Under the pieces are notes generated by a model, which did no database searches, had not been told where the DNA came from, and worked only from the letters and a program-made list of their open reading frames with translations. Source: a virus. Taken from it: a stretch of 26,378 nt of DNA. The position numbers were made by a program, and so were the translations under genes. Below are positions 20,246-22,306 of this stretch, in pieces. How positions within the stretch are numbered: position 1 is the first letter of the stretch; every line of letters starts with the position of its first letter. The stretch is from positions 1-26,378 of the IMG/VR virus record IMGVR_UViG_3300042691_008769; one strand, 5' to 3'.

Positions 20246-22306
20246 ATGGCATCGAAACCACTCGCAGAAAGTACGCTTAAGGCCGCGGTTGATACCTTGG
20301 CCGAGCAAGGGACGGAGTTGAGGGCCGCAGCGGTCCTCGGCATCCCCCGACCCACGTTCCAGCACCATCTCCGCGAAGCCGCCAGGCGCGGCATCACCGC
20401 CACGGCACCCGTGCCTGACGCTTTCGAGGTGGAGTCGTCGGATTTGGGTGATCGTCTGCTGGCATTATTGCAGCGGGCGCCGTTGACGATGGATGAGATG
20501 ACTCGCCGTTTCGAGAGCAGGCGCGGCCAGATCATCGACGCCATCGACGACGCGCGGGCGAAGGGGCACCGGATCGAGGAGCAGGGCGGCAAGTTCTTTG
20601 TGCCGTCTATGCCCAATCCGGCCTTCATGGCGCACGAAGACGACCTGCCGACGTACACATCGCGACCTGACGGCACCTATCTCTTTGGCGCGTGTGGCGA
20701 CAATCATTTGTGCGTTCCTGGCGGCGCGACGGTGACCACCGATAAAGGGGTGGTGCGAATCCGCGAATTGAAGATTGGTGATCTCGTTCTTACGCATATG
20801 GGGCGCTTTCAGTCGGTACTTGAAATAATGAGATCGCCCGGCAACAGACCAATGGTTCGCCTTCGGTGTCGCGGCGACAAGAGAAATGGGGCCAATGACA
20901 ATATGTCGTTGGTGTGTACGGAGAATCATCCCGTACTCGTTGTTCGCGATGGTGTGGAGGGATTTATCCCCGCCGGCGAAGTGCGCGAGGGAGATTGTCT
21001 GCGCGCCAAACCAAGCGCCTGTAAGATTTGTGGCGCTGATACCCTTCCATGGGCGACGGTTTGTCGTGAGCACGATCCATTTGTTCGCGCTATCCATGAC
21101 GGCGCCAAGAGGCAGCGCTACGAACAGGTGGCTCGCACAGGCGGAAGTCGTCATTGGCGGAGTGACATCCTGCCAGAAATGGCTAGATGGCAAGACGAAG
21201 GTTATCGCTGTATTCCAGTGGAACGTGCGCGCCCTGACTTTATCGCGATCAAAGATGGAGAAGTCGTTGCCGTAGAGGTTGAGGCGCCAAGCAACGGCAT
21301 CCGTCCGCGCCCAATGAAAGACAAGTATGATTGGGTTGATCATCGCAAATATTATGATCGCGTTGAGTGGATTGAGGTAGATCGGCGGTCTCGCAAATCA
21401 AATTTTGGGCACACATGGCTAGATCGCAATGAGGCTGGCTTTATTGGTCTTCCTGTAACGAAGGTCGAGCGGTTCACTGGAGGGCGACAAGCACTCTACA
21501 ATTTACGTGTAGCGGAGGATGAAACCTTTGTCGTGAAGGGTTTTGTCGTCCACAACTGCTCGAAATACGCGCGTCTCGACGTGCTGGAATCGCTCTATGA
21601 CATCTATGCCGCCGAGGGCGTGGACCGGGTGTTCAACACCGGCAACTGGATCGATGGCGAGGCGCGTTTCAACACGCACGATTTGCTGATCCACGGCATG
21701 GACGCGCAGCTGCGCTACCTCGCCAAGAACTACCCCCAGCGTGCCGGCATCCACACCTACGCTGTCGCCGGCGACGACCATGAGGGCTGGTACGCGCAGA
21801 AGATGGGCATCGATATCGGCCGTCGCGCCGAGGCGACGATGCGCGAGCAGGGCCGGATCGACTGGCACAATCTCGGCTACATGGAGGCGCATATCCGCCT
21901 CGTTCACGCTGATAGTGGCAAGTCGGCGATCCTGGCGGTGGTGCATCCCGGCGGTGGCTCGAGCTACGCGCTGTCATACAGCATCCAGAAGATCATCGAG
22001 TCGTTGGACGGTGGTGAGAAGCCGGCTGTCGGACTCTACGGTCACTATCACAAGCTATGGGCCGGCAACATCCGCAACGTGTGGTGCGTCCAGACCGGCA
22101 CGACGGAAGACCAGACTCCGTTCATGCGGAAGAAGAAGCTGGAAGCCCATGTCGGCGGCACACTGATCAAGTTGACGCAGGATCCGCGCACTGGCGCCAT
22201 TACGCGCTGCCAGCCCGAGATGATGCGGTACTTCAACCGCGGCTTCTACAACAACCGCTGGAACCACGGTGACGACGTGACCCACGCCCTGCGGAGCGTG
22301 GCATGA
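20246..22306 (+). CDS. HTH-metallophosphoesterase precursor interrupted by an intein
   Basis: The precursor is 686 aa; after splicing the host protein would be 404 aa. Residues 9-47 form a helix-turn-helix (GTELRAAAVLGIPRPTFQHH) and residues 66-118 a probable winged helix. The phosphoesterase follows: GDNH at 151-154 supplies Asp152 and His154, TGNWIDGE at 465-472, AGDDHE at 508-513, a VVHPGGG segment, and GHYH at 599-602. These match the five metal-binding motifs of calcineurin-like phosphoesterases, so the spliced enzyme looks intact. Substrate is unknown; DNA or a nucleotide is likely given the DNA-binding part. The next gene overlaps its stop as ATGA. Confidence 0.85.
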   Translation: MASKPLAESTLKAAVDTLAEQGTELRAAAVLGIPRPTFQHHLREAARRGITATAPVPDAFEVESSDLGDRLLALLQRAPLTMDEMTRRFESRRGQIIDAIDDARAKGHRIEEQGGKFFVPSMPNPAFMAHEDDLPTYTSRPDGTYLFGACGDNHLCVPGGATVTTDKGVVRIRELKIGDLVLTHMGRFQSVLEIMRSPGNRPMVRLRCRGDKRNGANDNMSLVCTENHPVLVVRDGVEGFIPAGEVREGDCLRAKPSACKICGADTLPWATVCREHDPFVRAIHDGAKRQRYEQVARTGGSRHWRSDILPEMARWQDEGYRCIPVERARPDFIAIKDGEVVAVEVEAPSNGIRPRPMKDKYDWVDHRKYYDRVEWIEVDRRSRKSNFGHTWLDRNEAGFIGLPVTKVERFTGGRQALYNLRVAEDETFVVKGFVVHNCSKYARLDVLESLYDIYAAEGVDRVFNTGNWIDGEARFNTHDLLIHGMDAQLRYLAKNYPQRAGIHTYAVAGDDHEGWYAQKMGIDIGRRAEATMREQGRIDWHNLGYMEAHIRLVHADSGKSAILAVVHPGGGSSYALSYSIQKIIESLDGGEKPAVGLYGHYHKLWAGNIRNVWCVQTGTTEDQTPFMRKKKLEAHVGGTLIKLTQDPRTGAITRCQPEMMRYFNRGFYNNRWNHGDDVTHALRSVA
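20711..21556 (+). mobile_element. Intein with PD-(D/E)xK-like homing endonuclease segment
   Basis: The element covers precursor residues 156-437 (282 aa). It starts at Cys156 (CVPGGATVTT, block A), has block B TENHP with Thr225 and His228, and ends in FVVHN with His436-Asn437 followed by Cys438 as the +1 residue, all expected for a class 1 intein. Between the splicing halves lie CKIC/CREH (Cys259, 262, 273, His276), probably a zinc knuckle, and RPDFIAIKDGEVVAVEVEA with Asp331 and Glu344/Glu346, a PD-(D/E)xK-like core. No LAGLIDADG or HNH was seen. The DNA is visibly more AT-rich than the flanks, suggesting recent arrival. Confidence 0.9.

Follow-up and report, generated by a model that had tools for sequence, protein, structure and literature searches.

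The locus studied here, in a tailed phage, raises the question of what interrupts a gene for a calcineurin-like metallophosphoesterase within its active site, and what kind of nuclease the interrupting segment carries. The window analysed (26,378 bases) is the entire virus record, assigned to the tailed phages by its head and tail protein matches, and the open frame of the host gene is intact over 686 codons with the insert included (protein residues 156-437). Inteins exemplify how one splicing module has been captured by nucleases unrelated to one another, and those described mostly carry LAGLIDADG and less often HNH nucleases. The element described below is in itself an ordinary intein; what is unusual is its nuclease partner, which appears not to have been described before (Table 1).

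Table 1. Features of the interrupted phosphoesterase gene, in positions of the window. The boundaries of the Hint halves (intein residues ~1-102 and 249-282) are our placement.
Feature	Position	Strand	Basis or remark
Host gene, calcineurin-like metallophosphoesterase with N-terminal HTH-like region	20246-22306	+	Single 686-aa open frame, intein-interrupted
Intein with nested nuclease domain	20711-21556	+	282 codons; splicing residues, profiles, absence from 35 homologs
N-terminal Hint half, with Cys1	20711-21016	+	Profiles, splicing residues; Pho RadA intein alignment
Block B TENH, intein residues 70-73	20918-20929	+	Single TxxH
CxxC-x10-CxxH cluster (C104, C107, C118, H121), candidate zinc knuckle/DNA-binding element	21020-21073	+	Sequence pattern
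Modelled nuclease region, intein residues 137-246	21119-21448	+	Homology to L275, L058, L066, L059; model, fold matches
Nuclease core	~21149-21376	+	Within modelled region
Catalytic PD, P175 and D176 (RPDF at 174)	21233-21238	+	Invariant in five sequences; aligned with Hjc PD
ExE half-motif E189-V190-E191, strand 3 (VEVE at 188)	21275-21283	+	Glu invariant (n=5); aligned with Hjc E-x-K
K205, in the helix predicted to follow strand 3; candidate for a relocated catalytic Lys	21323-21325	+	Invariant column in alignment A4
C-terminal Hint half, ending His281-Asn282	21455-21556	+	TIGR01443 above cutoff
Cys+1, first residue of C-extein	21557-21559	+	Sequence; Gly or Cys in homologs

The preliminary description had placed a 282-residue intein at these positions and listed its Cys1, TxxH, terminal His-Asn and Cys+1; indexed directly in the sequence, each was found, so that the class-1 landmarks are complete. 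The C-terminal half passes the NCBIfam intein_Cterm model (TIGR01443, 20.1 bits against a cutoff of 15.6), the Pho RadA intein aligns over intein residues 64-97, and Pfam Intein_splicing (E 1e-5) and Hint_2 (E 9e-5) match under their gathering scores, with Hint also weak. An element of the bacterial intein-like or hedgehog type, which cleaves itself without splicing, would be compatible with the weak Hint_2 and Hint scores, but is highly improbable here, as every class-1 splicing residue is present, including His-Asn and Cys+1, intein_Cterm scores above its cutoff, and removal of the insert restores a conserved active site. With the insert present, Pfam Metallophos_2 matches residues 563-622 only (E 0.21); with the insert removed, the match covers residues 151-340 of the joined protein (E 0.013, still under the Pfam cutoff) and reaches across motif I to the GHxH region. 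The insertion point lies just 3′ of the Asp-x-His in phosphoesterase motif I (GDNHL). The earlier claim that removing 282 residues restores the phosphoesterase thus stands, but the junction given with it, GDNH directly to SKYARLDVL, needs correction to GDNHL-CSKYARLDVL, in which the Leu is retained and the +1 Cys is an extein residue.

Alignment with intein-free homologs had been set beforehand as a test, and the joined exteins, scanned against viral contigs, had 37 relatives. The intein is absent from all 35 homologs that span the site, among them a protein of Halorubrum virus BLv36, and the alignment is continuous through it; at these 35 loci the homologs lack exactly the intein segment, as intein-free homologs of a class-1 intein should. 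The empty sites mostly read D[N/Q/L/S]H[x][G/C]SK, with Gly at the +1 position in most homologs and Cys in some. A natural +1 Cys is seen in the intein-free phosphoesterases L010, L026-L029, L032, L033, L037 and L038, and the splicing nucleophile therefore need not have arrived with the intein. Together with the landmarks and profiles, these empty sites confirm the element as a class-1 intein, whose splicing is predicted from its sequence. Among 41 phage records, related or similar, no second copy turned up; record G038 gave a weak intein match, which was rejected, since it sits in a tape-measure-like protein.

The element is also AT-richer than its surroundings, as had been claimed, with 53.8% GC against a mean of 64.7% elsewhere (s.d. 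1.8, minimum 59.8%, 477 windows of 846 bases) and a third-position GC of 0.47-0.57 inside the intein versus 0.70-0.92 in phage genes. This base composition and the patchy distribution support acquisition of the intein from another genome, and the recent arrival suggested in the preliminary description fits both, which give no date.

Pfam returned nothing for the middle domain even at E 10, in line with the reported lack of LAGLIDADG and HNH and extending to GIY-YIG. Neither the whole intein nor the middle domain, searched directly against phage records, plasmids, and viral and bacterial/archaeal contigs, yielded a confirmed nuclease relative. Phage inteins matched by the whole intein (Gordonia MuF, Vibrio, Lactobacillus, Tetrasphaera and others) were rejected as nuclease relatives, as they share the common Hint only and their middles are without the PD...ExE core; a weak nuclease match in a related phage (G012) was rejected because it sits in a terminase-like protein. 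As these searches failed to yield close relatives, viral contigs were scanned with DNA patterns, the first of which, PD...ExE at exact spacing, gave 17 matching stretches, with L058, L059 and L066 being clear relatives beyond the motif, while a further pattern, with the Pro left out, retrieved L275, the closest relative. In BLASTP comparisons the core is 43% identical to L275 over 69 residues (E 2e-16) and 41% identical to L058 (E 1e-10). Since the relatives were retrieved by the motif itself, their similarity at motif positions was selected for, but that outside the motif was not. A pattern with the loop one residue shorter, serving as a negative control, returned unrelated proteins only, and a loose version of PD...ExE arose in 2 out of 200,000 shuffled versions of the middle domain; the pattern is no artefact of composition. 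A scan that allowed ExK returned mostly short phage proteins with PD-x13-E-x-K spacing, including the Hjc of an Acidianus virus (Pfam E 1e-18), and on our reading these proteins are mostly of the VRR_NUC/Hjc type. Only one intein with the present core, that described here, was found.

Profile matches to known nucleases are all below curated cutoffs. The intein (E 0.098) and L058 (E 0.006) weakly match the Holliday junction resolvase family phrog_6591, and Pfam Hjc (PF01870) weakly matches relatives at E 0.013-0.12 (L275 at 0.013, L058 at 0.047); with no Hjc match for the intein itself, the relatives under cutoff and the Lys of ExK absent, the domain is not assigned to Hjc proper.

Further indications of its affinity came from an alignment (A4) of the intein core with L275, L058, L066 and L059. 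As these five sequences include no annotated nuclease, no known fold was fed into the profile or the model derived from them. Compared with all PDB sequences, the A4 profile has four Hjc proteins as its top matches (E 0.003-0.006), and the D, E and E of the family are aligned under the Asp, Glu and Lys of Hjc. AlphaFold on A4 returned a model with a pLDDT of 70 overall, 24 residues at 90 or above, a core mostly above 80 and a pTM of 0.63, in the order helix-strand-strand-strand-helix-strand; by prediction, from model and fold matches alike, the domain has the alpha-beta-beta-beta-alpha-beta core of the PD-(D/E)XK superfamily. The top Foldseek match is Hjc 2eo0 (E 3.5e-3, probability 1.00), followed by R2 endonuclease, VRR_NUC, restriction enzymes and I-Ssp6803I, all Foldseek E values being above 0.001. 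VIA-align gave a Z of 7.9 to Hjc 1gef (82 residues, 2.8 A), and while the tool warns that a Z below 8 may reflect common arrangements and by itself decides nothing, nearly all rows shown have the PD-(D/E)XK fold. VRR-NUC proteins lead the matches in a viral fold library. The restriction-type fold put forward in the preliminary description is thus supported by matches of the predicted fold that are almost exclusively to PD-(D/E)XK-fold enzymes, and the outcome named beforehand as counting against it, a predicted middle domain like LAGLIDADG, HNH or no nuclease, did not arise.

The low mean pLDDT obtained without relatives (37 in an uninformative single-sequence AlphaFold run on the entire intein) could be read as pointing to a middle region that lacks structure and serves as a linker, or that derives from a LAGLIDADG or HNH domain by degeneration. 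Such a reading is barely credible, given the absence of LAGLIDADG and HNH profile matches at E up to 10 and the confident core model, of restriction type, that appears once the four relatives are added; LAGLIDADG, HNH and GIY-YIG were dropped as candidates, having no profile match and no place among the fold matches shown. The sequence profile, the spacing of the motif and the fold prediction all point instead to a PD-(D/E)XK fold, and as modelled the middle domain is a member of that superfamily, closest to Hjc by sequence and to Hjc and VRR_NUC by fold.

The motifs CKIC, CREH, RPDF and VEVE, said earlier to lie inside the element, are located at intein residues 104, 118, 174 and 188. Invariant in the five A4 sequences are the P, the D, a KDG turn, both Glu of ExE, and K205, and the strand-2 Asp and strand-3 Glu of the superfamily are represented by the Hjc-aligned D176 and E189. 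The catalytic Lys of (D/E)XK is replaced by Glu in all five members, so that the ExE noted at first in the intein is conserved throughout the family. Some PD-(D/E)XK enzymes have Glu, Gln or Asn instead of Lys, and in COG4636 a Lys in the neighbouring helix gives the variant PD-EXX-K (PMC551604); since accepted members also do without the usual Lys, its absence alone does not exclude a protein from the superfamily. Nuclease activity could persist here through the second Glu or through K205, which lies in the helix at model residues 67-72 and, by the PD-EXX-K precedent, may have taken over the role of the Lys. A separate phage family, common and of ~150 aa (L205, L220, L232, L241, L263 and others), has the motif D[LI][IV]AxKDG...VEVE(VK), another restriction-type variant without Lys at the usual place.

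The missing Lys at its usual position and the lack of a second copy among the 41 phage records would also be accounted for by a genuine intein with a decayed nuclease, in which the fold was kept, loss of the Lys abolished cleavage and inheritance is now vertical; decay following fixation is, moreover, part of the accepted homing cycle. We regard this as unlikely. The five members, divergent and including NUMOD3 proteins that are not inteins, all keep the Asp, both Glu and K205, and this conservation speaks for ExE as the functional form. Superfamily enzymes with Glu, Gln or Asn for Lys also exist (PMC551604). The frame is intact, and 35 empty sites and a shift in GC are inconsistent with vertical inheritance.

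The setting of the core in its relatives bears on its function. In L066, NUMOD3 occurs in three stretches (E 5e-12), alongside matches to PHROG homing endonucleases, and L275 has NUMOD3 at E 0.002; NUMODs are DNA-binding modules found in phage homing endonucleases (PMC3943268). With NUMOD3 joined to it in these two proteins, the same core is present outside inteins, in what is apparently an unnamed nuclease family. The Cys/His cluster of the intein, formed by CKIC and CREH, is absent from all four relatives (L275, L058, L066 and L059), and its pattern makes it a candidate for the zinc knuckle proposed in the preliminary description. An exchange of DNA-binding modules is suggested by the different partners of the core, NUMOD3 in other phages and a preceding Cys/His cluster in the intein. 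The domain might instead be a PD-(D/E)XK protein with another job, such as an Hjc-like structure-specific nuclease or a general DNA-binding module, as could be supposed from its nearest solved sequences being Holliday junction resolvases; we judge this very unlikely, as the position between Hint halves is that of a homing endonuclease, NUMOD3 occurs in two of the four relatives, and the ExE and the lack of the conserved Hjc helix-1 acid separate the domain from Hjc.

Several observations were made in other phages. In L066 (5393-6037), an element of ~640 bases interrupts the major capsid gene; its open frame, a continuation of the 5′ portion of the capsid frame, codes for the NUMOD3 motifs together with the PD-ExE core, the two ends of the element make up an imperfect inverted repeat of 17 bp (CTTATATC-AATGGTCCT / AGGACCATTCGATATAG), and its RNA folds far better than shuffled sequence (z -9.35, 20 shuffles). 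No group I or II intron was matched in Rfam at E up to 1, and the element may be an intron, a bypass element or something else. In the related phages L058 and L059, the capsid gene is uninterrupted and the nuclease core follows immediately downstream of it, in a 186-aa ORF (L058, 7344-7904) and in a short, apparently remnant ORF (L059, 2256-2486), respectively. Gordonia phage Nordenberg gp9 (L040, 1107-4214), a MuF-like minor capsid protein annotated for head morphogenesis only, has an intein-like insert whose middle region differs from that of the present intein.

We think it likely that the element is mobile, a class-1 intein whose homing relies on a PD-(D/E)XE endonuclease of Hjc/VRR-like type placed between its Hint halves. 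From the computed intein anatomy, empty sites, nuclease family and fold, we infer splicing, cleavage, homing, zinc binding and a substitute for the Lys along the following lines. The Hint halves would excise the intein by an acyl shift at Cys1, transfer to Cys+1 and cyclization of Asn282, and joining of the exteins, GDNHL to CSKY, would restore the metal site of the phosphoesterase. The excised intein would then probably cut intein-free alleles in co-infecting phages, at a site close to the conserved codons of motif I, and repair templated by the copy with the intein would spread the element between phage genes. The CxxC-x10-CxxH segment probably aids target binding, in place of the NUMOD3 repeats of the relatives, and catalysis may proceed via E191, the second Glu, as in Glu-for-Lys enzymes, or via K205, as in PD-EXX-K. 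The wider proposal, that an unnamed PD-ExE-K homing-endonuclease family moved between NUMOD3 proteins and an intein and that the intein described here is the first one whose homing depends on a restriction-type nuclease, is one we advance tentatively, as falling somewhat short of an even chance.

An intein with a compact Hjc/VRR-like core of ~80 residues would represent a separate nuclease capture event and would test whether nucleases of other folds can be accommodated at the Hint insertion site. The conserved ExE and the candidate relocated Lys offer a mutational test of how restriction-type enzymes cope without the usual Lys.

No PD-(D/E)XK homing endonuclease in an intein was found in the papers examined. 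A review of inteins names HNH, His-Cys, GIY-YIG and LAGLIDADG, the last being the commonest in inteins (PMC7765530), and PD-(D/E)xK is listed as one of six families of group I intron homing endonucleases (PMC3943268). In its host gene the element resembles the inteins of mycobacteriophage A1 RDF/metallophosphoesterases (PMC5050341; Applejack and LilBib, PMC12613952), likewise phage inteins in a calcineurin-like phosphoesterase and likewise adjoining a conserved motif of that domain (PMC5050341), but those of Applejack and LilBib carry a LAGLIDADG homing endonuclease (PMC12613952) where the present one carries a PD-(D/E)XE domain. The EDxHD (Vsr-like) homing endonucleases of phages, such as I-Bth0305I, combine a restriction-like active site with additional regions for DNA binding (PMC3943268), but the Vsr half-motif is FxH and the middle domain has PD...ExE. 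I-Ssp6803I (PDB 2ost) provides the likeness of a restriction-type fold in a homing role, and is matched by fold (Z 5.6; Foldseek probability 0.87 over 43 columns), with no sequence match among those of the A4 profile in the PDB; it is, however, encoded by a bacterial group I intron rather than an intein, and the present domain is nearer to Hjc and VRR_NUC. The VRR_NUC phage nucleases are the best viral fold matches and have identical motif spacing, but use ExK, occur outside inteins and were not seen in a NUMOD3 context. Archaeal Hjc (PF01870) is the best match by both sequence and fold and shares the PD-x13-E-x-[KE] spacing; it is a stand-alone ExK enzyme that cuts four-way junctions, whereas the nuclease described here has ExE and lies within an intein.
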